Assembly (NCBI GenBank): GCA_017416065.1 | Contig: JAFQDM010000025.1 | Location: forward strand, 24,443 to 88,442 | Direction: 5' to 3' | Length of the DNA: 64,000 nucleotides | Origin: Ruminococcus sp. | GTDB taxonomy: Bacteria > Bacillota > Clostridia > Oscillospirales > Acutalibacteraceae | In this document: positions 19,138 through 33,829 of the stretch, piece by piece | Layout of the letters: every line of letters begins with the position of its first letter | Numbering within the stretch: position 1 is the stretch's first letter | Translations under genes and position numbers: made by a program | The notes under the pieces: generated by a model | Told to the model about the DNA's origin: nothing | The model's input: only the letters and a program-made list of their open reading frames with translations | Databases searched by the model: none

Positions 19138-20315
19138 AATTTATACATCACATCCACAATTTTTCCGTTTTTCATATACACTCTGGGAACACGCTTGGAA
19201 ACAGCGCAGATAATCTCGTAATTGATGGTGCCTGCAAACTCAGCAAGCTGAGATGCGGTGGGCGCGCCGTCATCTCCCTTGGAGAAGAGTACCACCTCGT
19301 CCCCTATTTTTACACCCTCAATATCCGTCACGTCGATCACAGTCTGGTCCATACATATTCTGCCCAGAATCTTCGCTTTCTTGCCTTTAACTCCCATATA
19401 CCCCTCTTTGGAGATAGCACGGAAGTACCCGTCTGCATAGCCCACGGGCACGGTTGCAACCAGCATATCCCTGTCTGCCACAAAGCTTCTGCCATAGCTG
19501 ACGCAGGAGCCCTTTCTGAGCTTCTTTACAAAAGCAATGGTAGACTTAAAGGCCATGGCGGGAGTAAGCTCAAGGTCGCTTTCAAGGGAGGGGTTCGGGT
19601 CAAGTCCGTAGAGGATGATTCCTGCACGCACCATAGAGCCGTAGGTATAAGGGTGAAACTCCACCGCACCGCTGTTGGCATGGTGCACCACGTCGAAGGT
19701 GATCCCTCTGTGAGAAAGAGCCCTCACCGTGTGCTCAAACGCCTCAAACTGGCATCTGGTGTATTCCGCCTCCGCTTCTCCCTCGTCTGCAACGGAGAAG
19801 TGTGCCATAATGCCTCTGATCTTAAGCCCTTTGAGCCTGCAGACCCTTTCTATTTCATCAATGGAAGCATCATCCTCGGGGAAGCTCTGACACATAAAGC
19901 CTATGCGGCTCATGCCTGTGTCCACCTTAATGTGAGCATCCACGCAGACCCCTGCCTTCTCACATGCGGCAGAAAGCTCCAAAGCGTACTGGGTGCCGTA
20001 GACCGCCTGAGCTATATTGTAAGCAGAGAGCTTTGCCGCCAATGCCACGGGAGTATACCCCAGCACCAGCACAGGCTCTCTTATTCCGCTTTCTCTCAGC
20101 TCCACCGCCTCGTCAATGTTGGAGACCGCAAAGTGCTCTGCACCAAGCCTTGAGTAAAGATGCGCCAGCCTCTGTGCTCCGTGGCCGTAGCCGTCTGCCT
20201 TTACAACACAGCAGATCTTTGCACCGCCAACCTTTTGGCGGATCTGCAGAAAGTTACGCTCCACCGCATCAAGGTCGATCTCTGCCCAGGTGCGCTTTAT
20301 TGTATCAAGTTCCAT
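19134..20315 (-). CDS. alr: Alanine racemase
   Basis: A 393-residue PLP enzyme making D-alanine for peptidoglycan. The PLP lysine is in CVVKADGYGHGA and the second catalytic Tyr in VSYGRSF. The substrate loop MSRIGF and the dimer motifs GRICMDQTVIDVT are present. It is the first gene of the minus-strand cluster, overlapping polA by 4 bp. Confidence 0.95.
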   Translation of the reverse strand: MELDTIKRTWAEIDLDAVERNFLQIRQKVGGAKICCVVKADGYGHGAQRLAHLYSRLGAEHFAVSNIDEAVELRESGIREPVLVLGYTPVALAAKLSAYNIAQAVYGTQYALELSAACEKAGVCVDAHIKVDTGMSRIGFMCQSFPEDDASIDEIERVCRLKGLKIRGIMAHFSVADEGEAEAEYTRCQFEAFEHTVRALSHRGITFDVVHHANSGAVEFHPYTYGSMVRAGIILYGLDPNPSLESDLELTPAMAFKSTIAFVKKLRKGSCVSYGRSFVADRDMLVATVPVGYADGYFRAISKEGYMGVKGKKAKILGRICMDQTVIDVTDIEGVKIGDEVVLFSKGDDGAPTASQLAEFAGTINYEIICAVSKRVPRVYMKNGKIVDVMYKL

Positions 20316-20446
20316 TTATATTACCCCCATTTTTCCCGATGTTTTTTCGGGAGGGAATTCAGATATTCAAGTACATAAATACTCATAATAATTATATTAC
20401 TAACCATAGGAGAAATCAACACATAAAATTAATTTTTAACAAGCAC

Positions 20447-20478
20447 AAAGCCACCCTGTTTCAAGGGTGGCTTTTAAC
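20447..20478. terminator. Hairpin between alr and the phage-like locus
   Basis: An 11-bp stem AAAGCCACCCT/AGGGTGGCTTT, 24 bp beyond the end of the last phage-like gene. It probably terminates that operon before alr; the T-tract on the minus strand is interrupted. Confidence 0.65.
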
Positions 20479-20497
20479 GCTTAGTATGCTTTTTTAT

Positions 20498-20968
20498 TTA
20501 TCTTATGATCGCAACTCTGTACTGCTTGCCGCTTTCGTTAAGGCAGCTCATAGCTCCGTTTTTTGCCGCAGTATCCTGAGTAAACTTCAGGGTACTGCCC
20601 TCTATTGCGGCTCCTGAGCTGCTCCCTGCGCCGTACACCGCCACAGCCGAGTACACCTTGGTACAGCCCTTTGTGCTGTCGTAGATGCAAGGGGGCACAG
20701 AGTCGCAGTACACCACTACCATAGATGGAGTAAAGCTCAGGCTGAGGGTAGCCTGCGCCTCACCGTTTCCAAGGTAGGACTGATACTGCACGGGTCGGGT
20801 GACCCTTGCCTTTTCAGCCTGAGTCAGGTGAAGCTGTGAGCTTGCAATATGCTCTCCCAAAGCCTCATCCAGAATCATATTATCAGAGTTAAAATCTCCT
20901 CTTTGAGGGCGGTCCGTGCCCTCCCAAAGGTTAAGTCCCAGATTTTCCGTTTTGTTTTTTGATGCCAT
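20498..20968 (-). CDS. Phage-like tail fibre or receptor-binding protein candidate
   Basis: A 156-residue protein, last gene of the phage-like locus. Its N-terminus (LNLWEGTDRPQRGDFNSDN) is the short attachment segment often seen at the start of Firmicute tail fibre proteins. The rest is beta-rich with Gly, Ser and Ala. It is short for a fibre and has no collagen-like or lectin domain that I can name. Confidence 0.7.
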   Translation of the reverse strand: MASKNKTENLGLNLWEGTDRPQRGDFNSDNMILDEALGEHIASSQLHLTQAEKARVTRPVQYQSYLGNGEAQATLSLSFTPSMVVVYCDSVPPCIYDSTKGCTKVYSAVAVYGAGSSSGAAIEGSTLKFTQDTAAKNGAMSCLNESGKQYRVAIIR

Positions 20969-20982
20969 AGTTTATCCCTTCC

Positions 20983-21552
20983 TTAACTTACGTAAATATC
21001 TATCTCCGACCAAGGCATAGCCTTACCCTCCATACTGTCAAAGGTAAGGCTTCTGCTGTCTGAATCGTTCCAATCAAAGCCCTTGAACACAGCATCTGCC
21101 TCTATATGGGCAGGAAACACCGCCCCAAGCTGAGATACTATCCACTTGCGCTGGCCTCGGGGTACATTCTCAAGGCTCACCTCTACAGTCACTCTGAAAA
21201 CGTTTGGGTATTCCCTGATCTCTCCCTCAATTCCAAGGAAGCTGAGCACCTTGCGCATTCCCTCAAGGGTAAAGTCTCCGTAGCCAAAGCTCAGACGTGC
21301 AAGGAGCATTTCTCTGCGCTTTGCAGTGCTCAGGTCATCCCTCGGGGCACCCCAGAGCTTTTCCCAAAGAGAGAGTCCGTAGCCCTCTGCACTGCCTGCA
21401 AAGGCCTCCCTTTCCAAGGTCTCCAGCTCCTTTTGCACAAGCTCAAGCCCTGCCGCATAGGCACTCAACTCAAAGCTCAGGTTACTGCCCTCTTTTATGC
21501 TGTAGATCTTCAAGGGAGTGTGTGCCCTTATGAGTTTTTCAAGCACGCTCAT
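20983..21552 (-). CDS. DUF2313/YmfQ-like baseplate wedge protein (XkdU family)
   Basis: A 189-residue protein starting at the ATG at 21552 (AGGGGG upstream), overlapping the baseplate J gene by 4 bp. It has the LSLWEKLWGAP and REMLLARLSFGYGDFTLEGMR patterns of the tail protein that follows baseplate J in contractile tails (P2 gpI/XkdU). Confidence 0.82.
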   Translation of the reverse strand: MSVLEKLIRAHTPLKIYSIKEGSNLSFELSAYAAGLELVQKELETLEREAFAGSAEGYGLSLWEKLWGAPRDDLSTAKRREMLLARLSFGYGDFTLEGMRKVLSFLGIEGEIREYPNVFRVTVEVSLENVPRGQRKWIVSQLGAVFPAHIEADAVFKGFDWNDSDSRSLTFDSMEGKAMPWSEIDIYVS

Positions 21553-22619
21553 ACAAGTACCCCCTGAGTCACGTTTACGCTGCCCATTACGGGATAATGG
21601 CTGTTTTCGCATCGGATGTCTGAGTTTTCATAAGAGTCAAAGGTATACTCTCTGACTCCCTCAACGTGGTAGATTCTCTCCCCTGCCTCTGTCAGCAGTA
21701 CGTTGCCTCCCACACCTCTGGAATTAATATACTCCCTCAAGGCATTTTCGCAAGCCTTTCTGACCTGGTCAAATTCGTATCCGTCACAAAGGTCTATTCT
21801 CAGATTCAGATTTACTACCGCAGGAGAAGCCTTCTTTGCAAGCACGTCCACATTTACCTCACGAAGCTTTGCCAGGGTATCCTGCACCTTTTTGAGGGTC
21901 TCGTCTGCAACAGAAGAATCAGAGGACGCCACATACACGTCAACAGTACCCGCACCTCTGCCTCTGGGCACCGCCCGTGCGGCTGTGATTCCGGGTATCT
22001 GCATTGCCACCTTCTCATAATAAGCACAGTTCGTGCCGTTTGATGCATTCTTGTAGGAATCAACCACCCTTACTCTCAGGCTTTCATCGCTCTCCGCATC
22101 TGTACCTGAACGGCAGGTTTCGGGATTTGTGACCTTCAGGTTACCCTGCACAGAGGTAACTATAACCGTTATCTTCCCCGGTGCCACGTTGTACTTTGAT
22201 CCCTTTGCAATTGCCCTGATGGGAGCATTCACCGCGTAAGTTCCCTGCTTCATAGTCACATCAGCGGTGGTCTCAAAGCACAAGGGAGCCCCTCCTGCCG
22301 TAGAGACTACGGTCCCCCTGGGGATTACAATATCTACAAGCGCTCCAAGCTCTGAAGTAAACTTAACGTTTCCTACTGCTGAGGAGGCGCTGCGGCGTGT
22401 TATCCCTCTCTCTTCGGCGTGCAGGTCAAGGTATTCACCTGTGGCAGTACCTGCAAAGGTCTGCCTTTTGAGCCATTCAATATTCACCGATGTGTTGTAC
22501 AGCTCTCCTGCAAGCACACAAAGCCTTATGTATATATCCGACGCCTTGGAGGGCTCAAAGCCCGAAAGCTGAGAGTACTTGCCAAGCATACTGCTGAGAA
22601 TTTCATCATACGTTACCAT
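21549..22619 (-). CDS. Baseplate J-like protein (XkdT family)
   Basis: A 356-residue baseplate wedge subunit. Typical features are ASDIYIRLCVLAGELYN, the FAGTATGEYLDLHAEERGI segment near residues 55-75, the VGNVKFTSE beta region, and VPRGRGAGTVDVYV. It overlaps the XkdS-like gene by 7 bp and the XkdU-like gene by 4 bp. Confidence 0.9.
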   Translation of the reverse strand: MVTYDEILSSMLGKYSQLSGFEPSKASDIYIRLCVLAGELYNTSVNIEWLKRQTFAGTATGEYLDLHAEERGITRRSASSAVGNVKFTSELGALVDIVIPRGTVVSTAGGAPLCFETTADVTMKQGTYAVNAPIRAIAKGSKYNVAPGKITVIVTSVQGNLKVTNPETCRSGTDAESDESLRVRVVDSYKNASNGTNCAYYEKVAMQIPGITAARAVPRGRGAGTVDVYVASSDSSVADETLKKVQDTLAKLREVNVDVLAKKASPAVVNLNLRIDLCDGYEFDQVRKACENALREYINSRGVGGNVLLTEAGERIYHVEGVREYTFDSYENSDIRCENSHYPVMGSVNVTQGVLV

Positions 22620-22960
22620 TTCAGTATCACCTCTCCGGTTTTTTCTTTGTCATTGTATTTCACGGTGATCTCTGTGCGGATACTGCCGTCAACAAGCTCC
22701 CAGGCATAGTTTACAAAAAGCTCTGCGCCTTTGATGGGCAGTATGGCCTCTCTGAGCCTTGCCTCTAAGATCCGCACCTGCCTCTCGCCTGACACATCCG
22801 TCACCGCACAGCAGCCTAACTCCTTGTCATATTCAAAACCGCCTTTTTTTACGCTGATACACAAAAGCACCTGCTGGAACACCTCTTCTATTCCATCTAT
22901 ATACACAGGCTCTCCCGTATCCCTCAGCACCATATCTCCGTTATTTATCCTAACGTCCAT
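22613..22960 (-). CDS. DUF2634/XkdS-like baseplate protein (gp25 type)
   Basis: A 115-residue protein with the lysozyme-like gp25 fold pattern: DGIEEVFQQVLLCISVKKGGFEYDKELG followed by ILEARLREAILPIKGAE. It sits where xkdS lies in PBSX, between the spike-like protein and baseplate J. The ATG overlaps the previous stop in a TAATG junction. Confidence 0.82.
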   Translation of the reverse strand: MDVRINNGDMVLRDTGEPVYIDGIEEVFQQVLLCISVKKGGFEYDKELGCCAVTDVSGERQVRILEARLREAILPIKGAELFVNYAWELVDGSIRTEITVKYNDKEKTGEVILKW

Positions 22961-23304
22961 TATCCACCTCCAAGCTCCTTACCGTTTACATATACCCTGC
23001 CGTCGTTTTTCAGCACAAGGGTTGCGCCGCCTGCAGACCTGAGCATGATCTCTCCCGGCTCCAAAGAGGCGTCCTCTGCCTGCACGACCCCCACGCAGGC
23101 ATCCCCTATGGCCGTATGCACCATCACCGCCTGCTCTCCAAGGGGAGGCACGCAAACCACTCCGAAGGGAGAAACAACGGGTACGTCCCTGTGTTTGCCC
23201 GATGCCTCAACCTCTACCCGTGAGCCGCGTGAATCCGTAACGCTTCCTGCTGTGGCGGCAGGGTTCTCCTTAATATTCTTTGCCATAAATGACGTAAGCC
23301 ACAT
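22960..23304 (-). CDS. Baseplate spike-like protein (DUF2577/gpV type)
   Basis: A 114-residue protein read from the ATG at 23304 (AAAGGAGAG upstream). It has an OB-like N-terminal half (VVSPFGVVCVPPLGEQAVMV) and a short beta repeat end (LVLKNDGRVYVNGKELGG) resembling the tip of membrane-piercing spikes. Its position corresponds to xkdR. Confidence 0.75.
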   Translation of the reverse strand: MWLTSFMAKNIKENPAATAGSVTDSRGSRVEVEASGKHRDVPVVSPFGVVCVPPLGEQAVMVHTAIGDACVGVVQAEDASLEPGEIMLRSAGGATLVLKNDGRVYVNGKELGGG

Positions 23305-23305
23305 A

Positions 23306-24235
23306 TCAGCTCTCCTTTCTGCACAGGGTAACACGGGTGTATTCCTTGCCGTCGCTCATTACATAGCGCAAGGAACTGACCCTGTAGTTTTCGTATTCAC
23401 CGTGTGAGCTTATTACCCTTGCCTGCGCGCCCAGAAGCGGTGCAAGCTGTACAGAGCACCTGAGGGTCAACACCTCAGAGCTCTGCTGGGCACTCTTAAC
23501 TGCCTCAAAAGCCTTGGACAGAGTATCTCCCGAAAGGTCAGAGGCATCCAGGTACCTTTCTCGCCTGATGCCCTTGGCTATTGCCTCGGGGTTTGCCACC
23601 GCGGTGTCGTACTGCCCTGCGGTCTGTGTTTTTGCCCTGACAGTTGATATAAGCTTGCACCTGAGCCTGCTGTGCTCAAGCCTCTCAAAGGGGATTCCGT
23701 CCCCCAGATTTGAGAACACGGCCAAAGCCCTCTCCTCCGGCTCTGAAAAAACAAGCTTCCTTGAGCGCACACGGGGCTTTTTGCCGTAGACCTTTTTGCC
23801 GAAGGCTTCCGCAACCTGCCAGCAAGAGCTCCCCTTTACAACGTCAAATTTCCCCTGAAAGGCTACGTCTTCTCCCACAAAGCCCTCTATCCCACAGGGG
23901 GCCATATACCTTTCAAACACCACCTCTGTACAAGGATTCACAAAGTTATGGGGACACGCCTCGTTGTCAAGGAGCAACGCCGCCATACTGCGGGCAATTA
24001 CCTCCGTTTTCTCTGCCTCATAGGCAATAAATATCTGCTCATCCACCACCCCACAGAATATCTCTTCTCCATCGTAAGATAAGCAGAGCTCCGCAAGCTC
24101 CTGCTCTATCCTTTGAGGGAAAATGATCCGCAGACTGTCTGCAGGCACCTCCTCATCACGGCAAAGCTCAATATACACGGCAGAGGGGAGGCTGAGCGTC
24201 TCCCCGTCTGCACTAAGGGCAGCTATCGTCAGCAC
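23306..24235 (-). CDS. Tail hub protein (XkdQ/late control D-like)
   Basis: A 309-residue protein with the CGVVDEQIF start of the hub fold, a central KGSSCWQVAEAFGKKVYGKKPRV stretch and late repetitive beta-strands. Position and length correspond to XkdQ (gpD), the hub between tube and spike. It begins inside the end of the LysM gene (7-bp overlap). Confidence 0.8.
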   Translation of the reverse strand: MLTIAALSADGETLSLPSAVYIELCRDEEVPADSLRIIFPQRIEQELAELCLSYDGEEIFCGVVDEQIFIAYEAEKTEVIARSMAALLLDNEACPHNFVNPCTEVVFERYMAPCGIEGFVGEDVAFQGKFDVVKGSSCWQVAEAFGKKVYGKKPRVRSRKLVFSEPEERALAVFSNLGDGIPFERLEHSRLRCKLISTVRAKTQTAGQYDTAVANPEAIAKGIRRERYLDASDLSGDTLSKAFEAVKSAQQSSEVLTLRCSVQLAPLLGAQARVISSHGEYENYRVSSLRYVMSDGKEYTRVTLCRKES

Positions 24236-24741
24236 AGCCTCACCTTCTTTCCTGCGATTTCTTCATCGGGACGCTTCACCCAGGGATTCAGCTCCACCAG
24301 CTTCTCAAGCGGTACGTTGTACTCATAGGCAATGGAGTACAGGCTGTCACTCCCGTTACCTGTGTGAAAGCACGGTTTTTCATCCTCAGCGGCAACTGCC
24401 TCCACAAACTCAAATCCGTACTCAATCAGCTCAGGGGTATCTGTAGCCAGTGCATACAGCTTTGTAAAATAAGCATACACGGGAGGTCTGCCGGGCAGGG
24501 TCAGCACACCCTTTCTGCCCATAGCAAATACCCTCTCAAGCTCTTTGTACTGCTCTATGCAATCCTCACCCGTAAGCTCCCCTTTGCCTGAGATAACGTT
24601 GACCCTGCGCACCGTGTCGGCAACTGCCTCTGCGGAGTTTGGCATCACCCTTTTTGTGTGTGAAAGCTCGTGGGATACCTTTAGTGTCAGAGGATTATAT
24701 TGCCACTCAAGGCCTGCAAATCTCATGGTTGCAAGTATCAT
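24229..24741 (-). CDS. LysM-domain tail protein (XkdP family)
   Basis: A 170-residue protein. The ATG at 24741 overlaps the stop of the 41-codon gene before it (TGATG), with GGAGG 10 bases upstream. The N-terminus is the tail baseplate-hub part (MRFAGLEWQYNPLTLKVS). The C-terminus is one LysM domain (about 125-170: SDSLYSIAYEYNVPLEKLVE...NP). In PBSX this gene follows the tape measure; here no tape measure precedes it. Confidence 0.87.
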   Translation of the reverse strand: MILATMRFAGLEWQYNPLTLKVSHELSHTKRVMPNSAEAVADTVRRVNVISGKGELTGEDCIEQYKELERVFAMGRKGVLTLPGRPPVYAYFTKLYALATDTPELIEYGFEFVEAVAAEDEKPCFHTGNGSDSLYSIAYEYNVPLEKLVELNPWVKRPDEEIAGKKVRLC

Positions 24742-24866
24742 CACTCATCCTCCTCCAAAAGCGAGAGCATCCTGCTGTAACGCCGCGAGTCCCTCTCAAA
24801 CTCACGGCTCAGCAGCTCTGCCTGAGTCACGCTCTCGTTCTCTGTGTATTCTTCCGTATTTGTCAT
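24741..24866 (-). CDS. 41-residue coupled small protein in the tail segment
   Basis: A short frame starting at the ATG at 24866. Its start overlaps the previous stop (ATGA) and its stop overlaps the next start (TGATG), so it is translationally coupled on both sides. The protein begins MTNTEEYTENESVTQAELL, is highly acidic with Arg near the end, and should be helical. It occupies the place of the tail chaperone and tape measure genes. No function is recognised. Confidence 0.65.
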   Translation of the reverse strand: MTNTEEYTENESVTQAELLSREFERDSRRYSRMLSLLEEDE

Positions 24867-25603
24867 TCTGTCACCTCTGCTCCCTTGTGAGCCCTTCTGC
24901 ATTGGAAGATCAGCTCCTGTCCTCCCCTTGTGCTGTTGTGCATTTTATGCAGTCTGCAATCGTCGTAGGTCATATTTGCGTTCTCTCTGTAGATGTTTAC
25001 GTTCTTATTTGCAAGGGCTCCTATGGGAATATCAGCCCCGAGAACGCTCATTGTAATGGTGTACCTGCTCTTCTGTGCAACGTACTGCTCAACCTCTCCT
25101 GCCAGCAGTTCCCGACGCTCGTGGGCAGAGCACTCCACCGTCACCTCAAAGGAGGTCACTCCCGTGATTTTGGTTGTACCCAGGTACACGGTTTCCGTAT
25201 ATACCTCATCAACCGCTTCTGTCTTTTCTGCAACCAGAGCACTCACTACCTGCTTCCACACAGACATATTGCTGTCAAAGCTGCTGTCTGCAATGGTTAT
25301 CTTCTCAAAGCTGCCCTCTGTATCCACAGACAGAAGTCCCTGCGCCAGCTGCTGTGAAAGGAGAGTGAGGGCACGTTTGCCCTCACCCTGAGGAGCATAC
25401 AGAGTAAACTCCAAGGTTCCCTTATACTCCTCGTTCTCCTTTTTGAATTCTTCCTTTGCCGCAGCACAGGCAATGAGGAAATCATCCACAGGCCTCTGTG
25501 CAAACTCTCCTCTGCCCGAGTGAACAAAGCGAATTGAAGATAGCCCCTGAAGCTTCTTAAGCTTCAAAACCAATTCATCAAGCACATTTGTCAAGTTCTT
25601 CAT
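24863..25603 (-). CDS. Tail completion/tail-tube-like fusion protein candidate
   Basis: A 246-residue protein starting at the ATG at 25603 behind GGAGGA, overlapping the previous gene by 26 bp. The first half (to about 120) resembles the tail-completion proteins of PBSX-like tails. The second half (about 130-240: KITGVTSFEVTVECSAHERREL, KSRYTITMSVLG) has the strand pattern of a tail-tube protein. It would then be a fusion of XkdJ-like and XkdM-like domains. This domain reading is inference; only position and strand pattern support it. Confidence 0.55.
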   Translation of the reverse strand: MKNLTNVLDELVLKLKKLQGLSSIRFVHSGRGEFAQRPVDDFLIACAAAKEEFKKENEEYKGTLEFTLYAPQGEGKRALTLLSQQLAQGLLSVDTEGSFEKITIADSSFDSNMSVWKQVVSALVAEKTEAVDEVYTETVYLGTTKITGVTSFEVTVECSAHERRELLAGEVEQYVAQKSRYTITMSVLGADIPIGALANKNVNIYRENANMTYDDCRLHKMHNSTRGGQELIFQCRRAHKGAEVTE

Positions 25604-25949
25604 AATCGTCCTCCACAGGCGGATAGTAGGGAGTCAGCACCGCCCAGATGTATAGCTCCTTGTTGTCTGCCTTTACCATCTCCACACGCTTGATGGTGTA
25701 TTTTGCGTTTGCATCCTCCACCACCGCACGGCGGTAATCCTTCACCTTAAGGCTTGCAGGGGCTATCATCAGGTAATGACCTCCGTCAAAAAATCCTGCA
25801 GGCAGAGCCGTGCCACCAAGGTACATCTTGTTTTTGTACATCAAAGGCTGAATGATAGCCTTTGAGCGATTCCTCAGAGCATCCTCCATAATGCAGATAT
25901 CATCTCCAAAACGGCGGATCATCTTTTCAATGGTATTGTACACGCTCAT
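25578..25949 (-). CDS. Head-closure/connector protein candidate (XkdH position)
   Basis: A 123-residue protein with a central MYLGGTALPAGFFDGGHYLMIAP region and an acidic tail. It follows the connector gene with a 4-bp ATGA overlap. Its position fits a head-closure or stopper protein. No motif proves it. Confidence 0.6.
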   Translation of the reverse strand: MSVYNTIEKMIRRFGDDICIMEDALRNRSKAIIQPLMYKNKMYLGGTALPAGFFDGGHYLMIAPASLKVKDYRRAVVEDANAKYTIKRVEMVKADNKELYIWAVLTPYYPPVEDDYEELDKCA

Positions 25950-26314
25950 GCCCTGACCCCCTTAAATGCAAATCCACTCTCCTGCCCCAGAATATCCCAA
26001 AGAGCTTCCCTCTCAGCCTTCCAGAGCTTCTCTGCGTGCTCCATCTCATCCTGAGAGATGGTAACGCTCACGTTGCCTGCGGTAAAGCCCTTCACCTTAG
26101 TCACGTAAGCATACATACAGTACTTGTAGTAGGCATAAACTCCCGCACTCCTTGAGAGCCTGAGCACGTCCTCCTCCGAAAGCTTAACCCCGGAGGGCAC
26201 CATCCTCTCTATCTCCTTAGAGGCATCACAGCAGAGCACGGTCCACTTGGAGACCTCCTCAGGCTCAAGACCTGACACAAGTGCAAACCTGTTTATGGTT
26301 TCATTAAGCCTCAA
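25946..26314 (-). CDS. Head-tail connector protein candidate
   Basis: A 122-residue, largely helical protein placed directly after the major capsid gene. The order and the helical pattern (EEVSKWTVLCCDASKEIERMV, SAGVYAYYKYCMYAY) fit gp6/YqbG-type head-tail adaptors. Confidence 0.65.
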   Translation of the reverse strand: MRLNETINRFALVSGLEPEEVSKWTVLCCDASKEIERMVPSGVKLSEEDVLRLSRSAGVYAYYKYCMYAYVTKVKGFTAGNVSVTISQDEMEHAEKLWKAEREALWDILGQESGFAFKGVRA

Positions 26315-26330
26315 ACCTGCTACCTCCTTA

Positions 26331-27341
26331 TCAGTATGTAAGCTTTACGGATGCATCCTTGAAAATCTTTGCAAAGCCTGCAATGGAGCTGATGGTTGCA
26401 CGCTCAAGCTGTCTGTCAATGAGCTTGTCGTAATCCGTCACAATGTCCCCTGCCTGCACCATCTCAAGGGCACAGTTTTTGTCAAGAGCCAGCACTGTAC
26501 CTGTCTGCAGAGCAGATGTGTGCACAAGCTTTGCACCCAGAGGAGTTACCATAGTGCCCGTGCCGTGGAAGCTCTGGCCTGCCACGCTGTCCTTAAGCTC
26601 AGAAATAGAAAGCATCTTAACCATACCGTCGGTAGGTGCCACAACGGTGGTCATATTGTAGGGCGAAAGCTTTGCCCAAAGTGCCACCAGATCATTGTAG
26701 GATATCTTGTCTGCCTCCAGAGCTTCAATCCCCTCACAGGGATTCTGATTGCCGTCACCTGAAAGGAGCACCTCAACTGCGTCCTTAAGCTGTGCTCTTG
26801 CAATGTAAGCACCGATCTGCTTCAGAGTTACCGTGAACAGGTCAAGGCGCTGAAAGCGCAGAGCCTCGTAAGAGGATACCAGCATTCTGCCGCGCTTGTG
26901 GAGCTTCACCAGATTCTCGCTTGTAGAGACCTTTGTCTGAGGAATAAACGCACCCTCAGAAACCTTCACCAGAGTTTTGTCTTCATCAGAGGGTGTAGAG
27001 GTGATGCTTCTGTAGTCCATACCGTTTATCACGGTCTTTGTTGCAATAATGTCTGAAAGCACGTCTGCCTCCTCCATACCCTGGCGCACAGCACGGCTTA
27101 CATACTCAGGGAAAAGTGCCGCAGAGTCTGCACACTGAAAGAACTTCTCAACAACGTCAGACTTTGCACCCTTTACTCTGATGTCAAATCTTTTGAGCTG
27201 ACGAGAGAAAGCATCCAGCCCCTCCTCGGGAGTACCCACGTAGTTTGCTGAAGGGTCAAGCTCCTCAAGGATATCCGTCATACTCTTTGTACCCATACCG
27301 TACATACCCTTATCAAGGGAAATCTTCTCATAAAATGCCAT
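26331..27341 (-). CDS. Major capsid protein (HK97-fold type)
   Basis: A 336-residue protein located after the protease and decoration genes. It has a long helical N-arm, a central part with IIATKTVINGMDYRSI and the E-loop-like and P-domain pattern (KLHKRGRMLVSSYEALRFQRLDLF). A late LALDKNCALEMVQAGDIVTDYDKLIDRQ segment is typical of PBSX/XkdG-like capsid proteins. No N-terminal delta domain is obvious. Confidence 0.8.
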   Translation of the reverse strand: MAFYEKISLDKGMYGMGTKSMTDILEELDPSANYVGTPEEGLDAFSRQLKRFDIRVKGAKSDVVEKFFQCADSAALFPEYVSRAVRQGMEEADVLSDIIATKTVINGMDYRSITSTPSDEDKTLVKVSEGAFIPQTKVSTSENLVKLHKRGRMLVSSYEALRFQRLDLFTVTLKQIGAYIARAQLKDAVEVLLSGDGNQNPCEGIEALEADKISYNDLVALWAKLSPYNMTTVVAPTDGMVKMLSISELKDSVAGQSFHGTGTMVTPLGAKLVHTSALQTGTVLALDKNCALEMVQAGDIVTDYDKLIDRQLERATISSIAGFAKIFKDASVKLTY

Positions 27342-27362
27342 ATCAATTACCTCTCCTTTTTA

Positions 27363-27698
27363 TTAAAGAATAAAGCCTACGGTGTCTGCATCTGCAGATA
27401 CCACAAGGACCTGTGTGCCGTTTGCATCTGCCGCAATTTTGCCCTTGCCGCCTGCTGAAACACCCTGCCAGCCAAAATCAAGGTCACCTTCCTTGGCTGC
27501 ACAAACGTAGCCCTTAAGCTGTACCGCCGCATAGCCTGCGCGCACACTCACTGCATAGCCGCAGATCTTATCTCCCTGTGCGCAGGGTGCAACCTTGCCG
27601 TCAGATGTAAACTTTACAAACACACCTGCAGTCTCAAGTGTGCTGTCTGCCTCAAAGGTGAGCACGTTCTCACCAAAACCGTTAAAACACAAATTCAT
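27363..27698 (-). CDS. Head decoration-like protein candidate
   Basis: A 111-residue beta-rich protein with Ala and Gly repeats (KVAPCAQGDKICGYAVSVRAG, YAAVQLKGYVCA). The pattern resembles DUF2190-type small capsid proteins that precede or follow the capsid gene. Capsid stabilisation is inferred from position. Confidence 0.6.
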   Translation of the reverse strand: MNLCFNGFGENVLTFEADSTLETAGVFVKFTSDGKVAPCAQGDKICGYAVSVRAGYAAVQLKGYVCAAKEGDLDFGWQGVSAGGKGKIAADANGTQVLVVSADADTVGFIL

Positions 27699-27715
27699 AA
27701 TAACCTCCGCAAAAA

Positions 27716-28693
27716 TTAAATTCTGAAATCTCTGTTATCCTCTGCCTTACTTGCAGGGGATGTCTTTGCCGTCTGAGGAGCAAGGCCAAACCTTTTTTCA
27801 GCCTTGTCCTTGTAAGCCTCGTAAAACTCCCTGAGCTGAGAGTAGCTTAATCCCTCAAGAGCACTCTCCATGGTTTTGCGAGTAACACCGGGCTCTGCCA
27901 TCTGAGAAAGCCTGAGCACCTCGCTCTTCACACTCTCCAGATACTCATCACCCTGAGCCGCCCTTTTCTCAACACTTGAGATGTAGTCGTAGAGCCTCTT
28001 GGCCTGTTCTACACTCAGCGTCACCCCGTCTCCGGAGTTAAGGGATTTAATAATATCCGTCATATCCGTACCTTCCTTTCTGCCGCCTTGGGCATAAGCC
28101 TTGATGACCCCTGCCTCCCTTTGGGCAGGCACCGCCACAAAGCTCCACTCGTAGGCATCCTTCACATTCTGCAGTTCAAAGTAGCAAAGGCGGTTGCCGT
28201 AGTATTCTCCGCCAATATGCCCGCAATGCTCCTGCCTTTCTTTTCCGCAAACAGAGCACACCGCCCTGCCTGCACTGCAGCCTACGCTTACCTCCTTGCA
28301 GATTCCGCTTTCGATCTGTGATATCATATCCTTCGTCTTGTCGCTTATTGGCATATATGCCCTTGCAACAAGGCGGAAGTAATCATCTCCCGAGAGGGTC
28401 TTTCTGCCCTCTACCGCCTGAACTGAGCACTTAAAGATTCTGGCGGTCTGATTCTCTGCCTTGGGATTATGGTCACAGATTCCCGTTTTGCCCACAAAGA
28501 GCTTTTCCATCTCAAACAAAGACTCCACGGTAAAACGCTCAAAGTCTCTGTCCACGTCGTTGTTGCACAGCTCCACAGAAAAAACGTAGACCTCTGAGGG
28601 AGCAAACTCCCTGCGGGTGTACTTATTTATGAGCTCCAGCTCCTGAGCTGTTGCCGTACTGCTTGCACTTTTAATAATTTCTCCGCTTCTCAA
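27716..28693 (-). CDS. Prohead protease with zinc-knuckle-like insert and scaffold-like tail (XkdF position)
   Basis: A 325-residue protein starting 4 bp inside the portal gene. The N-terminal 210 residues fit a herpes-type prohead protease: the candidate His in GICDHNPKAENQTA and the Ser in KEVSVGCS. A CxxC...H.CxH insert (CSVCGKERQEHCGH) follows the Ser strand. The C-terminal 110 residues are helical and charged, as in scaffolds, and would be released on maturation. The catalytic assignment is inferred. Confidence 0.72.
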   Translation of the reverse strand: MRSGEIIKSASSTATAQELELINKYTRREFAPSEVYVFSVELCNNDVDRDFERFTVESLFEMEKLFVGKTGICDHNPKAENQTARIFKCSVQAVEGRKTLSGDDYFRLVARAYMPISDKTKDMISQIESGICKEVSVGCSAGRAVCSVCGKERQEHCGHIGGEYYGNRLCYFELQNVKDAYEWSFVAVPAQREAGVIKAYAQGGRKEGTDMTDIIKSLNSGDGVTLSVEQAKRLYDYISSVEKRAAQGDEYLESVKSEVLRLSQMAEPGVTRKTMESALEGLSYSQLREFYEAYKDKAEKRFGLAPQTAKTSPASKAEDNRDFRI

Positions 28694-29835
28694 TCCTTAA
28701 CCTCCAAACTTTCTTCCAACTGCTTTGCCTGAGCGTTCACAAGCCTTGCCTGAGCAAGACTCAGCTCATCCTGCAAGGAAATGTTGTTCCACTCAACCTC
28801 AAACTCCGGCTGTTCTCCGCACAAAAGCAGATGGGTCCTGCATATTCTCTCTATCACGGGTGTAAGCAGAGTTCTGAAGTACTCCAGCTCACTTGTGAGG
28901 ATATCTGTCTGCATAGCGCTCATCCTCTCTGTGCTTGACCAGGAAAGCCCAAGCAGAAAGGGCGGAATGCAAAGCTTTGACACTATCTGCTCCAGCATAT
29001 GGCGCACGGGTACGTCGCAGTCAAGTATCTGCCCGTCTGAGCCGATGACCTTAATCGAAACATCCCCCACAGCCACAAAATCACACACTCCTCTGTCGTC
29101 CCGCATAGCCTTGCTCCACTCCCCTGCAATCTCCCTGGCACGCTGTGCGGCGCCTGCGGTATTGCCGTCTGTGGGCTTGTAGGTTATGGCGTAGCGGACA
29201 TTGCCTGCTCGCTCCCAGTTACTGCCCACGGCAGAGAACACCTTAAGCAGTACGGAGCTTACAAAGGGCAGGCCCTTGAGTATGGAGTTACCCTTTGCGC
29301 TTCCTGCATCAGGAGAAAGCAAGGAGCATAGGATCAGCCCCTGATTCTCAAAGGGAGTGCTCTCTGCATCCTTTCTGCACACAGAGATACCCAACCCGTC
29401 AGCACAAGGCAGTACAGAAACGTTTTTAAGAGATGCGTTGTAAAGAGCCTCCAGGCTCCGCATATCCCCTGAGGGCACCATCTCTCCCACCGCTGTGCCA
29501 AAGGTCAGCAGCTGGTCAAGATAAGCATAGATAAAGTTTGCAAGGCCGCGCATTCCCGGAGAAACGCAAACGTTCCTTTGGAAGCTGTCCAAGATCTTCT
29601 GCGTGCGAGGATGCAAAGCTTTAAGCTCAAAGGTACCCACAAGCCGCACGATCTTGCCTATTGCCGCATCAATAACCGGCACAGCCTCTCTCAAGGATGA
29701 ATAAAGCTCCAGCTCTGTATCTGACAAAGGTGTGTACCTTTCAATGGCGGAAAAGGGATGCACAAGCCCCGGACTTTTGCCTGTTGTCTGCACGGCACAG
29801 GTTCGGGTTTTGGATTTTTTAGAAAATAACTTCAC
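28690..29835 (-). CDS. Phage portal protein
   Basis: A 381-residue protein read from GTG at 29835, preceded by GGAGG. It has the SPP1/PBSX-type portal layout: EAVPVIDAAIGKIVRLVG near the N-terminus, the IPPFLLGLSW loop and the wing ERMSAMQTDILTSELEYFRTLLTPVIERI. It overlaps the large terminase gene by 17 bp. Confidence 0.87.
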   Translation of the reverse strand: MKLFSKKSKTRTCAVQTTGKSPGLVHPFSAIERYTPLSDTELELYSSLREAVPVIDAAIGKIVRLVGTFELKALHPRTQKILDSFQRNVCVSPGMRGLANFIYAYLDQLLTFGTAVGEMVPSGDMRSLEALYNASLKNVSVLPCADGLGISVCRKDAESTPFENQGLILCSLLSPDAGSAKGNSILKGLPFVSSVLLKVFSAVGSNWERAGNVRYAITYKPTDGNTAGAAQRAREIAGEWSKAMRDDRGVCDFVAVGDVSIKVIGSDGQILDCDVPVRHMLEQIVSKLCIPPFLLGLSWSSTERMSAMQTDILTSELEYFRTLLTPVIERICRTHLLLCGEQPEFEVEWNNISLQDELSLAQARLVNAQAKQLEESLEVKD

Positions 29836-31093
29836 AGCTTTTCCTCCTGTCGGCGGCAAAGGCCACAAAGTCCTCTGCCCCGTCTTCTAAAATTGTTGTG
29901 ACGAAATACCGTATATCGTCCATGGCGTGGTCGTTTTCCTTGACGGGGATTTCTGCGCCCTCCTTTTCGTCCCAGCGATAAAGAGAGAATTCCCTTACCG
30001 AATCCCTGCAGCATTCGCAGATTCTGATCCTGCCCTCTCTCAGTGCAGAGGATACGCGCCGAATTCCGTCTGTCACCGAGTTCTTTGCAGGAATCACTGC
30101 GTAGCTTTTGTGTCGCTTTATCACCTCTATGAAGCTTGCGGCGGAGGGGTCTACAACAACTGCTCTGAGGCACCGCGTTCCTGCAAGTTCCTCCAAAGCT
30201 GCGTAGTGCTCCTCGTCGGTACGCTGCGCACCTTCCTTTTTGGAGTCGTAGTAATACTCGTCAATTCTGTACCACACGTCTGATCTTTTGCCCCAAAGTC
30301 CAAAGGAAGCAGGGTTAACTGTTCCATAATCGCAGGAAACGGCATACTCCTCAAACTCTCCCTTTGGCACCTCACAGAAGGCATCCTCCCTGTCCATAAA
30401 GGGATAGACCGCGCCTGTGACTGCTGTCCACTCACCCTTCACAAACCTTCTGTAAAAGCTTCCGGAGTACATCTGCTCGTACCTTTCCCTCACGTTCTTT
30501 GCAAGCGCAGGGTTGTCTTTCATTGTAAAATGGATGTACAGAGCTTTTTTCTCCTTTGCTTTCTTTATCCAGTTTGTGTAGAACCAATGGGCAGGGTGCT
30601 CGGGATTGCAATTAAACCAGAACTTGGAGCCGCTGACGGAACACCTTGCCAAAGCCTGCTCTACAAAGGATCTGGGCATCAGCGCCACTTCGTCCAGGAG
30701 TACCCCCGACAAGGTCATACCCTGAATAAGCGAGGCTGAAGACTCGTCTTTTCCGCCAAAAAGGTAGAATCTGTTTTCTCTGCCCTTGTAGGCGATCTGC
30801 AGGTAATTGGACGAGATATTCTCCTTAACGGAGAATCCCATCTCTTTGAGTACGGGCAGAATTGGGGTCGTCACATTTCGTCTGACAGAGCGTATTGTCT
30901 TTGAGCATATGGCAAAGGATGCGCCTGAGAACCGATAAAACGCCCACATAACAAAAGATATTGCCATGCAGAAGGTTTTGCCGGACCTTACCGCACCGTC
31001 GCATATGACTGCGTCACAATCTTTATACCTTGACCCCTGATCCCACCAGCACAAAGCAAGCATTTGCTTTTTGGAGAACGGCTTAAACTTCAT
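29819..31093 (-). CDS. Terminase large subunit
   Basis: A 424-residue DNA packaging motor. The ATG at 31093 overlaps the small subunit by 11 bp. Walker A CDGAVRSGKT (about residue 30), Walker B GVLLDEVALMP, and the nuclease acidic residues in SCDYGTVNPASFGLWG, VVDPSAASF and HAMDDIRYF are all present. Both ATPase and nuclease therefore look functional. Confidence 0.92.
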   Translation of the reverse strand: MKFKPFSKKQMLALCWWDQGSRYKDCDAVICDGAVRSGKTFCMAISFVMWAFYRFSGASFAICSKTIRSVRRNVTTPILPVLKEMGFSVKENISSNYLQIAYKGRENRFYLFGGKDESSASLIQGMTLSGVLLDEVALMPRSFVEQALARCSVSGSKFWFNCNPEHPAHWFYTNWIKKAKEKKALYIHFTMKDNPALAKNVRERYEQMYSGSFYRRFVKGEWTAVTGAVYPFMDREDAFCEVPKGEFEEYAVSCDYGTVNPASFGLWGKRSDVWYRIDEYYYDSKKEGAQRTDEEHYAALEELAGTRCLRAVVVDPSAASFIEVIKRHKSYAVIPAKNSVTDGIRRVSSALREGRIRICECCRDSVREFSLYRWDEKEGAEIPVKENDHAMDDIRYFVTTILEDGAEDFVAFAADRRKSCEVIF

Positions 31094-31574
31094 CTTTTGC
31101 CTCGCATTCACCCAGAGCTCTGGCACCTTTGGCAATAGCATCATAGATTGGGGCGGCCCCACCCTCATCCAAAGTATTGCTCTGCATTTTTTCCAGCGCC
31201 TTGAGCCTGTCAAAGAACTTGATCTCCATGGAGCCGTCCTTGGGTCGTTTTATCTCCGACACGCAAAAAAGATCCATTTTCTCAAGCTGCTCTGCAGTGG
31301 GGTCGTCCATATAAAGCAGCGACACCGCATCGGAAATACTCCCGAATGCAAGCCGCTGATACCCAACCCCCGCAAGCTCTGATACAGTCTGCCGCTTAAG
31401 CTTGCAAAGCCTTGCGATCTCTTCGGTAATGTCCTCTCTTGAAAGAAGCTGTTCTGCATATTTAAAGGTTGATTTTTTATATCCTGCAAAAAGCGCCGCC
31501 TCGTAGGCATCGCCGCAGGTGATATATCTTCTGCAGAACTCCTTCTCTCTCGGAGTCAGTCCGTTTCTTTTCAC
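31083..31574 (-). CDS. Terminase small subunit
   Basis: A 163-residue DNA-recognition subunit read from GTG at 31574 with GGAGGAA upstream. The N-terminal helix-turn-helix region LTPREKEFCRRYITCGDAYEA.. is characteristic of the terminase_2 family. It is the first gene of the dense packaging operon. Confidence 0.88.
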   Translation of the reverse strand: MKRNGLTPREKEFCRRYITCGDAYEAALFAGYKKSTFKYAEQLLSREDITEEIARLCKLKRQTVSELAGVGYQRLAFGSISDAVSLLYMDDPTAEQLEKMDLFCVSEIKRPKDGSMEIKFFDRLKALEKMQSNTLDEGGAAPIYDAIAKGARALGECEAKDEV

Positions 31575-31619
31575 CTAATTCCTCCTTATGTTCAAATCAG
31601 TGCTCCACCCTTGCCCCAA

Positions 31620-31655
31620 AAAAGCACAAAAATTGCATACTTTAATGCAATTTCT
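31620..31655 (-). terminator. Hairpin upstream of the terminase genes
   Basis: A perfect 9-bp stem AAATTGCAT/ATGCAATTT; on the minus strand it is followed by a T-rich tract. It lies between the SLOG gene and the small terminase, so it could separate them or attenuate the packaging operon. A second palindrome TGATGTAAAACATCA (31729-31743), also with T-rich DNA after it on the minus strand, lies nearer the SLOG gene. Confidence 0.55.
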
Positions 31656-31778
31656 GAAAAAATTTTTTAAAATTATTTATTTTTTGCAGATTTTTCGGTT
31701 TTTTGAGCAAAAAAATAAACCCTACCCCTGATGTAAAACATCAAAGATAAGGTTATATAAGCTATGGGAAATTATATT

Positions 31779-32153
31779 CTAAATCATATTTATTATCAGC
31801 GGCTTGCAAAATTCCAGCGCATACTCAATCATAGACTTTGTGCCACGGCTCATTCCGTCCCAAAAGCAAATCACATAGTCACAAGCCTGTGCCATCTGCA
31901 TATTTCTCCTGGGGCCTGCACTTCTTCCGAACCTCTCCCAATCCGCAGGGTATCTCTCAACGGCAAAGCCGTTTTCACTTGCGTAACGCTCTCCCGGAGC
32001 ATCCGCACCTCTTGCCCCTCCGGACAAAATGATTATTCTGTACTTTTTTCTCAGCCTGCGAAGATATTTATCCAGGATCTTTCTGGCATAGGAATAGTCG
32101 CAAAAGTCCCTGCACCCTGCAACCACGACCCTCTTGGCAGTACGCCTTATCAT
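31779..32153 (-). CDS. SLOG (DprA/LOG-like Rossmann) family protein, DUF2493/YspA type
   Basis: A 124-residue protein. The ATG at 32153 is chosen because GGGGTGG lies just upstream; the longer frame runs back through the terminator hairpin. Motifs VVVAGCRDF, ILSGGARGADAPGERYA, PADWERFGRSAGPRRNMQM and YVICFWDG..GTKSMIE are the nucleotide-binding pattern of SLOG domains. Family members bind nucleotides or nucleotide-derived signals and are common in phages. The gene starts 12 bp after an intrinsic terminator and precedes the terminase genes on the same strand. Confidence 0.85.
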   Translation of the reverse strand: MIRRTAKRVVVAGCRDFCDYSYARKILDKYLRRLRKKYRIIILSGGARGADAPGERYASENGFAVERYPADWERFGRSAGPRRNMQMAQACDYVICFWDGMSRGTKSMIEYALEFCKPLIINMI

Positions 32154-32164
32154 TAAACCACCCC

Positions 32165-32198
32165 AATAAAAAAAGCACATCCCGAAGGATGTGCCGAA
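32165..32198 (-). terminator. Intrinsic terminator between the structured RNA and the SLOG gene
   Basis: On the minus strand GCACATCC-TTCG-GGATGTGC is followed by seven T. The preceding CCGAGGAT could pair with ATCCTTCGG of the terminator (one bulge), giving an alternative antiterminator. Confidence 0.85.
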
Positions 32199-32319
32199 AA
32201 AGTGTTTATCCTCGGTAAGCTGCAACACAAACCATTTCAACCCAAACGGGGATAGAGGAAAACACCTTTTACCAAGGTAGTTTTCCCCCGATGGGTTGAG
32301 TATTCACGATTTGTGTTGC
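32199..32319 (-). ncRNA. Structured RNA candidate: long bulged hairpin (leader RNA or 6S-like RNA)
   Basis: Read on the minus strand, GCAACACAAA pairs with TTTGTGTTGC over 10 bp (32310-32319 with 32222-32231). An asymmetric bubble follows, then CAACCCA/TGGGTTG, CGGGG/CCCCG, GAAAAC/GTTTTC with side bulges, and an apical ACCTT/AAGGT hairpin. It has its own strong promoter and ends in an intrinsic terminator. The rod shape with a central bubble resembles 6S RNA. The placement in front of a start codon with a possible antiterminator resembles a cis-acting leader. I cannot match it to a named family. Confidence 0.65.
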
Positions 32320-32325
32320 AAGGTT

Positions 32326-32354
32326 ATTATATCACATACCCAATTACTTTTCAA
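32326..32354 (-). promoter_or_regulatory. Sigma-A promoter of the structured RNA and SLOG gene
   Basis: On the minus strand TTGAAA, a 17-bp spacer and TATAAT; the first transcribed bases would be just before the closing stem of the RNA. Confidence 0.82.
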
Positions 32355-32431
32355 GATTTCTTTGGCTTGGAAATATTCAATTCATAAATATTGTAAATAC
32401 GGGTAAAATATCTCAGGGTGAATATATATTT

Positions 32432-33829
32432 ATGGAAAACAAACTTCAAAAAGACATAGAATCAAACGTAAAGCTCATAGACACTCGTCTGCGGGCAGAT
32501 GAAAGCTTCGACATACTAAGGCGTGATATTACCATCTTCAACCGCAAGGCAAGGATATACGCCATAGACGGACTGGTGAAGGACACGGTTATGGGCAAGA
32601 TCATGACCTTCTTCTACGGAATCAACGACGAAGCTCAGATGAAAGACGCAGAGACCTTTGCAAGCTGTTGCGTGCCTTACATCGAGGTAAACACAGAGAA
32701 AGACCCGGACACCATCATTCAGAACGTCCTAAGCGGAATCTCTGCCCTGTTCATTGACGGGTTTGACACAGCTGTTATGATGGACACCCGTACCTACCCT
32801 CAGCGCCAGACCTCAGAGCCTGACAACGACAAGGTTATGCGCGGCAGCAAGGACGGCTTTGTTGAGACCATCATCAGCAACATTGCACTTATGCGCAGAA
32901 GGATCAGGGACGTAAACTTCACCGTCAAGCCCTTCTCTGTAAGCAAGACCTCCAAAGCAGACGTGGTAGTATGCTATATGGAGAACAAGGTGGACAAAAA
33001 GCTCCTTGACTCCATAATCTCCAGGATCAAAAACGTCAGGGTGGATTCCCTTGCAATGAACCAGCAGAGCCTTTTGGAGGCGATTTATCCCAAAAAGTGG
33101 TACAATCCCTTCCCAAAGATAAAATACACAGAGAGACCCGATTCTGCCGCCGCAAACGCTATCAAGGGAAACATCATCATACTTGTGGACAATTCTCCCT
33201 CTGCACTCATACTCCCCACCTCAATATTTGATATTGCAGAGGAGGCGGACGACTACTACTTTCCGCCCTTTACAGGCTCATATCTGAAGATCGCAAGATA
33301 CCTGATAGTGCTCACTTCCGTGTTCATAACTCCCCTCTTTCTGCTGATGATGCAAAACCCAAACCTGGTACCCGAGTCACTTAAGTTCATTATTCAGGAC
33401 AACGACTACAACGTACCCCTGTTCTGGCAGTTCATCATACTGGAGATAGCCATTGACGGTCTGCGGCTTGCGGCGCTGAACACTCCCACCAGCCTTTCGG
33501 GCACCATGGGAATCATAGGCGCCATTGCCCTGTCGGAATTCACCATAGACGTGGGCTGGTTTTCAACAGAGGCTATCCTCTATATGGCATTTGTGACCCT
33601 TGCAGGCTTCAGCCAGCCTAACTACGAGCTTGGCTATTGCATCAAATTCATCCGCATAATGCTGCTGATACTCACGGTTATCTTCAACGTGTGGGGATTC
33701 ATTGCAGGGCTTGTGCTCACTGCGGTACTGCTGCTTACAAACAAAACCGTCTCCGGCAAAAGCTACCTGTATCCCCTCATTCCCTTCAACGGCAAAGCCT
33801 TCATCCGCAAGGTACTGCGCCTGAGATAG
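32432..33829 (+). CDS. GerA/SpoVAF family spore germination protein
   Basis: A 465-residue membrane protein of the GerA A-subunit family. The N-terminal half is a soluble domain with VMRGSKDGFVETIISNIALMRRRI and PNPLLE-like features; about five membrane segments follow from residue 290 onwards, with LNTPTSLSGTMGIIGA in the membrane part. SpoVAF and GerXA share this layout; with no B or C subunit genes nearby, SpoVAF is the closer match. It would act in the inner membrane of the spore during germination. Confidence 0.82.
   Translation: MENKLQKDIESNVKLIDTRLRADESFDILRRDITIFNRKARIYAIDGLVKDTVMGKIMTFFYGINDEAQMKDAETFASCCVPYIEVNTEKDPDTIIQNVLSGISALFIDGFDTAVMMDTRTYPQRQTSEPDNDKVMRGSKDGFVETIISNIALMRRRIRDVNFTVKPFSVSKTSKADVVVCYMENKVDKKLLDSIISRIKNVRVDSLAMNQQSLLEAIYPKKWYNPFPKIKYTERPDSAAANAIKGNIIILVDNSPSALILPTSIFDIAEEADDYYFPPFTGSYLKIARYLIVLTSVFITPLFLLMMQNPNLVPESLKFIIQDNDYNVPLFWQFIILEIAIDGLRLAALNTPTSLSGTMGIIGAIALSEFTIDVGWFSTEAILYMAFVTLAGFSQPNYELGYCIKFIRIMLLILTVIFNVWGFIAGLVLTAVLLLTNKTVSGKSYLYPLIPFNGKAFIRKVLRLR

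Follow-up and report, generated by a model that had tools for sequence, protein, structure and literature searches.

Phage-derived gene clusters that retain a head and a baseplate without genes for integration or lysis pose the question of whether they are prophages in decay or particles that the host has kept for its own use. This question is raised by an operon in Ruminococcus sp. (assembly GCA_017416065.1), located on a stretch of 64,000 nucleotides (contig JAFQDM010000025.1, positions 24,443 to 88,442 of the forward strand) that is referred to here as the window. A reading made from the sequence alone (the sequence-only reading) had proposed a domesticated system, such as a gene transfer agent (GTA)-like particle with a very short tail. 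Comparison with related genomes indicates that the operon is probably a domesticated, vertically inherited GTA-like particle locus from which the contractile apparatus has been lost. Three properties by which gene transfer agents are recognised were found: phage-derived head and tail genes in an operon without integration or replication genes, vertical inheritance within the host clade (with one possible exception, locus L090), and long-term purifying selection. The proposed domestication is strongly supported by a single copy, trees congruent with those of the host, purifying selection and the absence of an adjacent integrase among the matches listed. A very short tail would fit the anatomy; packaging of host DNA and its transfer to recipients are inferred.

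Descent of the element was followed by comparing a head tree, drawn from six proteins over 1754 columns, with a tree of the host PolA protein in 28 of 30 genomes, G375 and G593 being left out for their split PolA matches. The head tree closely tracks the PolA tree (Mantel r 0.92, with 0 of 2000 permutations as high), and the genus subtree is nearly identical in the two. A genome labelled as belonging to the window's family (G131) is placed with families f12 and f22 in both. Here f1 denotes the window's family, which we take to be Acutalibacteraceae of the GTDB through Pseudoruminococcus massiliensis among the relatives, and f6, f12, f13 and f22 are further family labels. It is this 28-genome comparison that argues for vertical descent, the head genes having been co-inherited with host PolA through three families of one order. 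Distances of other element proteins follow those of the portal and large terminase (TerL), with Mantel r of 0.88 for the sheath carried by some relatives, 0.85 for J, 0.80 for the hub, 0.78 for I, 0.74 for the capsid, 0.69 for LysM and 0.64 for W.

The portal gene was found in 93 of 100 genomes of the same genus, 176 of 300 genomes of f1 (80 of 135 genera), 100 of 218 genomes of f22 (49 of 95 genera) and 101 of 395 genomes of the order (52 of 172 genera). The element is not universal in the order: with at least 22 family labels sampled, the matches listed fall in f1, f12 and f22, plus single genomes in f13 and f6. A sample of the class gave profile matches in 9 of 393 genomes, all inside the order, with at most four candidates scored per genome and misses therefore possible. 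Nearly all carriers have a single copy; two genomes of the genus sample gave two portal matches each, which in G058 are adjacent pieces and in G043 include a weak, stop-riddled second match. Phage records are nearly devoid of relatives (6 of 50,697, namely five contigs from human faeces that carry no annotation and a cyanophage with 28% identity). IMG/VR holds 331, of which the best 80 lie on contigs of at most 28 kb, and GTDB genome contigs hold at least 561, the best 80 being mostly gut metagenome-assembled genomes (MAGs), P. massiliensis among them.

Every gene tested is under purifying selection. Median omega (Nei-Gojobori; 17 pairs chosen, of which 6-17 were used for each gene of the window; dS partly near saturation) ranged from 0.064 for the capsid to 0.193 for the small gene 10, so that the dN/dS check suggested by the sequence-only reading returned medians of 0.06-0.19. 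The capsid, TerL and portal genes are the most constrained. The sheath of relatives had a median omega of 0.216 (two pairs), and single pairs reached 0.53. The core Walker and nuclease residues of TerL are invariant in 122 of 122 distinct sequences over 330 aa. For the portal, 142 of 143 matches have a single open frame spanning at least 85% of the model; for the capsid the figure is 136 of 137 and for J 102 of 105. The poorest figures, contig ends included, are those of gene 10 (31/76), gene 16 (79/103) and the small terminase gene terS (109/138).

In the window the operon is an intact set of head, packaging, tube and baseplate genes. All 17 minus-strand frames previously described were recovered at 20498-31574 (11 kb), and none is broken. 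The sequence-only reading gave overlaps of 1-26 bp for most frames; the longest starts give 131 bp for TerL, 50 bp for the portal, 40 bp for gene 10 and 64 bp for gene 16. An ATG at 31093 is the likelier start of TerL and leaves an overlap of 11 bp. The features, in gene order, are as follows.

31083-31574, minus: gene 01, small terminase (TerS; Terminase_2 E 4.5e-16 over residues 6-130; phrog_51)
29819-31213, minus: gene 02, large terminase (Pfam and PHROG matches; likely true start 31093)
28690-29868, minus: gene 03, portal (phrog_30703 E 9.4e-119)
27716-28693, minus: gene 04, probable head-maturation protease/scaffold (phrog_16951, of unknown function, E 1.8e-95; protease family E 0.11)
27363-27698, minus: gene 05, head decoration-like virion protein (phrog_4588 E 4.5e-16)
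26331-27341, minus: gene 06, major capsid protein (Phage_capsid_4 E 5.7e-14; phrog_3922 E 2.1e-93)
25946-26314, minus: gene 07, head-tail connector by position (matched in 60/62 loci)
25578-25949, minus: gene 08, head closure protein by position (56/62 loci)
24863-25603, minus: gene 09, fusion of an N-terminal tail-terminator part (by position) and a C-terminal tail tube (tube profile)
24741-24902, minus: gene 10, small protein of the chaperone/tape-measure slot, ending in an RDxRRY-like motif region at the C-terminus (conserved in relatives)
24229-24744, minus: gene 11, LysM tail protein, XkdP-like (Pfam barely under cut-off; profile of relatives)
23306-24235, minus: gene 12, baseplate hub of Mu gp44/43 kDa tail protein type (PDB 3d37 E 2.2e-10, 1wru E 3.6e-7)
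22960-23334, minus: gene 13, spike of Mu gp45 type (Pfam E 0.016, under cut-off; PDB 9ki1_V E 4.2e-4)
22613-22960, minus: gene 14, W, sheath-initiator/gp25-like wedge (PF10934 E 1.7e-4, under cut-off; phrog_120 E 2.3e-7)
21549-22619, minus: gene 15, baseplate J wedge (PF04865 E 4.6e-49; profile to CD1371, E 2.6e-50)
20983-21612, minus: gene 16, tail protein I/XkdU of Mu gp48 type (Pfam E 1.7e-8, under cut-off; phrog_521 E 2.7e-14)
20498-20968, minus: gene 17, short fibre-like protein (phrog_33092, of unknown function, residues 1-41, E 6e-5; 35/62 loci)
20447-20474, minus: terminator-like hairpin at the operon end (terminator scan)

Scans against Pfam and PHROG matched the Terminase_2, Terminase_6N/3, portal (phrog_30703), capsid (Phage_capsid_4/phrog_3922) and Baseplate_J families. 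Four tail matches in Pfam fell under the cut-off, namely LysM (20.4 vs 20.9 bits), sheath-initiator (22.1 vs 32.9), Mu Gp45 (15.6 vs 24.1) and Mu Gp48 (34.9 vs 37.4). The hub, J, spike and LysM identities are backed by PDB sequence searches with profiles made from relatives; the hub call is such a match, gene 12 having neither a PHROG nor a Pfam match. Gene 07 gave no PHROG match and nothing useful in Pfam or the PDB, gene 08 gave no Pfam or PHROG family and chance-like PDB matches, and the PDB profile search with gene 04 gave no useful match. The protease/scaffold role of gene 04 is presumed from conserved residues, which form invariant columns in the alignment. Matched genes keep one constant order in 42 loci, with the block from LysM to I present in 39. 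Among 20 later-added loci, profiles placed head genes in swapped order in L119 (G593), where 05-06 precede 03-04, and in L129 (G674), where 06 precedes 04.

The tail proved reduced, as the sequence-only reading had it, in that the sheath and a long ruler are gone, but a tube is present and gene 10 occupies the tape-measure slot. A tube profile built from 25 relatives, the window excluded, matches the gene 09 frame and places the tube in its C-terminal half. This profile finds the PDB tail tube 8q01 (E 3.5e-4) and the XkdM-related 9g8s (E 0.033), and the gene that follows the sheath in relatives likewise matches tail tubes. Several relatives likewise have the tube fused to gene 09, and elsewhere it is separate or shares one frame with gene 08, the latter a second type of connector-tube fusion seen in L075, L086, L087, L088, L091 and L092.

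A sheath gene, its identity confirmed by families and PDB matches, is present in the element in 7 of 10 loci from f12 and 4 of 8 from f22, and also in the one from f6. Within f1 it occurs in 3 of 20 loci from other genera and in 0 of 20 from the window's genus. The reported lack of a sheath was upheld genome-wide: profile searches found none in the window genome (G000, 85% complete), and of 20 genus genomes 19 had none; in the remaining one (G099) a match (E 1.8e-13) lies on a contig that does not carry the element. In PBSX-type phages the interval between the tube and LysM genes is occupied by a chaperone and the tape measure. In the window this slot spans 158 bp; its range is 24-181 bp where the sheath is lacking (35 loci) and 221-1377 bp where it is present (14 loci), as measured between profile matches and uncorrected for kinship in 49 of 61 loci, the rest having no tube or LysM match. 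None of the sheathed loci inspected showed an open reading frame as large as a usual tape measure. Gene 10 is a conserved small protein in this slot; its candidacy as a scaled tape measure is not favoured, given that sheath-bearing L078 has a gene 10 of 54 aa. Slot length is all that separates the two classes. On a head tree of 58 loci (excluding L116, L130, L131 and two viral contigs), the sheath occurs in 14 and requires five Fitch changes, or about nine losses if regain is disallowed; the loci are related to one another and are not phylogenetically independent. Among 80 named contigs, some from genomes shared with the main locus set, tube and LysM are both present in 51, and 1 of these 51 has a sheath. 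One of the named contigs, NZ_OLMR01000004.1 of P. massiliensis Marseille-P3876 (L207), has genes 01-04, the tube and genes 06-16 but lacks a sheath. The sheath is absent and the ruler slot shrunk in the window's clade and in others, and the retention of W without a sheath is as expected if W serves the baseplate.

Reduction extends to the baseplate in some lineages. J is missing from 9 of the 58 loci (L076, L082, L090, L115, L120, L122, L125, L126 and L129), in which the head module is present. A genome-wide search for J in eight J-less genomes found no match in seven and a weak match inside a 1015-aa frame in G279, and four controls matched. Ten proteins from four J-less loci were considered as replacement tail genes and rejected, none belonging to a PHROG tail family; the one strong PHROG match among the candidates is a translation elongation factor.

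This anatomy suggests how such a particle might work. Upon induction, the cell would build small capsids, which TerS and TerL would load with host chromosomal DNA. The connectors and a sheathless tube of few rings would link the head to a hub of the Mu/XkdQ type, the spike and the J/I wedge. The LysM protein, with the fibre, may anchor the particle at the cell wall, which the spike would open, and DNA would then pass without contraction. Lysis and regulation would be supplied by genes elsewhere in the genome.

The same parts could serve a headed bacteriocin of the PBSX kind, in which puncture of the envelope kills relatives and any packaged DNA is incidental. We consider this unlikely, though it is the best placed of the rivals. 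The baseplate, hub and spike are under selection, and the best PDB match of the J profile is CD1371 (named TRI-2), presumably part of the diffocin R-type bacteriocin. Weighing on the other side, the absent sheath leaves no means of contraction, the genes most constrained (capsid, TerL and portal) are those that a pure killer would not need, and no immunity gene was recognised in the operon. PBSX itself supplies a precedent for a headed bacteriocin (PMC12946183).

The surroundings of the element bear on a further possibility. The sequence-only reading had suggested looking for the same gene order at the same chromosomal place in relatives; the order was found, but the place is kept on one side and in about half of the genus loci, so that a conserved chromosomal site was rejected as only partly true. 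In the window, a GerA spore-germination gene lies at 32432-33829 and a Gate-domain gene, which we take to be SpmA/B-like, at 42677-43291; in genus relatives gerA and Gate genes stand together beside the element in a sporulation-type neighbourhood. Of 20 genus loci, 13 retain the gerA side when judged by profile and 10 when judged by flank clustering, which also revealed an alternative downstream neighbour common to ten genus loci. Of the genes polA and alr, the first was matched in 0 of 42 flank sets and the second in 1 of 42, and polA is located away from the element in 29 other genomes searched. The element might instead serve its host in a way unrelated to transfer, for instance by protecting DNA, by releasing nutrients or in the spore or mother cell. 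This would accord with gerA adjoining the element and with Gate-domain genes upstream in relatives. We rate it a little below the bacteriocin, as a second f1 clade has quite different common neighbours, and a tail with wall-binding and puncturing parts has been kept under selection.

A decaying prophage, having lost its sheath, ruler, lysis and integration genes, is very improbable. It draws on the sheath genes of relatives and on a few copies with split genes; the sequence-only reading had treated relatives with the sheath and tape measure genes deleted here, or relatives carrying the locus at different sites with an integrase, as signs of decay. Relatives do carry the sheath, but this does not make the locus a decaying prophage, because no integrase was seen travelling with the element among the matches listed. 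Integrase-family matches number 209 in 28 genomes; of those listed, the nearest is in G073 at a distance of about 9 kb from the element, and the others listed are more than 20 kb away or on different contigs. The window genome has four, three of them among the matches listed. The sequence-only reading saw no att-like repeat; of direct repeats in 18500-33500, three short two-copy ones were detected, none with one copy at each element end. Decay is opposed by the congruence with PolA, by median omega below 0.2, by the near-universal full frames of portal, capsid and J, and by the identical reduced form throughout the window's clade. Purifying selection has maintained the sheathless form in many species of several genera, and the sheath and the ruler slot vanish together, both of which argue against a prophage in decay. 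More remote still is a capsid-forming phage satellite or other mobile element, for which the compact packaging and head module and a possible transfer at L090 might speak, against an operon without integrase or replication gene, a single copy, congruent trees and a tube and baseplate of its own. On the trees, omega values and lack of a neighbouring integrase among the matches listed, the decaying-prophage, satellite and mobile-prophage readings were rejected.

Literature searches returned a single paper directly on point, which reports capsid-packaged random host DNA in gut Oscillospiraceae and Ruminococcaceae, and GTA-like packaging in several Ruminococcaceae, Oscillospiraceae and Christensenellaceae (PMC12946183). 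Four MAGs (Onthomonas, Gemmiger and two F. prausnitzii) are described there as having been searched for an operon, and a candidate is named in one F. prausnitzii (PMC12946183). This Faecalibacterium element, FpGTA, is the nearest known system found (Borodovich et al. 2026, PMC12946183). Both appear domesticated, with a head operon of about 10 kb (TerS, TerL, portal, capsid) and no replication genes. FpGTA is described as a podovirus-like particle without visible tail, its baseplate, fibre and lysis genes being set apart in another operon (PMC12946183). In the window a baseplate of myovirus type belongs to the same operon as the head. Nine genomes, from three genera that we guess to be Faecalibacterium or its kin, have no match to the portal profile, both controls matching; these were chosen by a Faecalibacterium 16S probe site in the small-subunit rRNA locus of one genome per genus. 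The FpGTA host presumably belongs to the same order as the window. Portal absence in the guessed kin may point to separate origins of the window element and FpGTA. Some of the remaining GTA-like packaging described in that paper might stem from the window element (PMC12946183).

More distant systems share parts of this organisation. In PBSX of Bacillus subtilis the head genes are followed by LysM/XkdP, hub/XkdQ, spike, J and XkdU, an order that the window shares. PBSX has been described as packaging host DNA (PMC12946183). The window operon differs in lacking sheath, long tape-measure, lysis and repressor genes and in its vertical inheritance through several families. RcGTA of the Alphaproteobacteria is described as a 17-gene head-tail cluster with homologues across the host class and no self-mobility (PMC7947584). 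The window operon likewise consists of 17 genes of head and tail, but has myovirus-type tail parts, and host-DNA packaging has been demonstrated for RcGTA alone of the two (PMC7947584). Likeness to diffocins and R-type tailocins lies in the J match to CD1371 noted above; the window keeps head and packaging genes and loses the sheath, the reverse of a tailocin.

Several observations weigh against a domesticated GTA-like locus. Some copies look broken, TerL and J each running across two frames in L074 and the portal being in two pieces in G058. L074 (G145), from a small genome, is possibly a decaying copy. The chromosomal place is conserved on one side only, and 124 of 300 family genomes have no portal, which implies that the element is dispensable or often lost. 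Some deep branches disagree between the head and PolA trees, and tube distances are weakly tied to those of the head (r 0.21, a value reached in 3 of 1000 permutations). On the 58-locus tree L090 (G196), whose label is f1, is placed with three loci of f22, which may reflect transfer between families. No lysis gene was found in the operon, the rest of the genome not having been searched for one. The candidate particle is known from genes alone, and packaging, particles and transfer are predicted. TerS of the window matches Terminase_2, a family with an N-terminal DNA-binding part. The TerS of FpGTA is said to have no obvious part of this kind (PMC12946183).

A fuller account can be offered tentatively. 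A GTA lineage spanning several families of one order and distinct from FpGTA might account, at least in part, for the packaging of short host-DNA fragments reported in gut Oscillospiraceae and Ruminococcaceae. The tail of its ancestor would have been short and contractile and would have lacked a conventional tape measure; sheath and ruler slot would then have been lost jointly and repeatedly, with packaging and baseplate still selected and contraction dispensable for delivery. To our knowledge, GTAs have been documented in few lineages. An old single-copy operon in more than 100 gut and rumen Clostridia genera would provide a concrete candidate for DNA exchange, and its graded tail forms (sheathed, sheathless and J-less) a natural series on the tail parts needed for DNA delivery. 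The 2026 gut study reports GTA-like packaging in several taxa and names an operon for Faecalibacterium only (PMC12946183).

At the margins of the element, the hairpin at 20474-20447 ends the operon, the same scan giving 25 sites in the region versus 12 expected. Just upstream of terS, at 31779-32240, lies a YspA/cpYpsA-related gene of the SLOG family (PF10686, E 1.1e-16), which had no match in the 62 other loci. The GC content is 0.509 in the operon and 0.467 in the remaining window, and GC3 of the operon genes (0.47-0.67, with polA at 0.58) is host-like.

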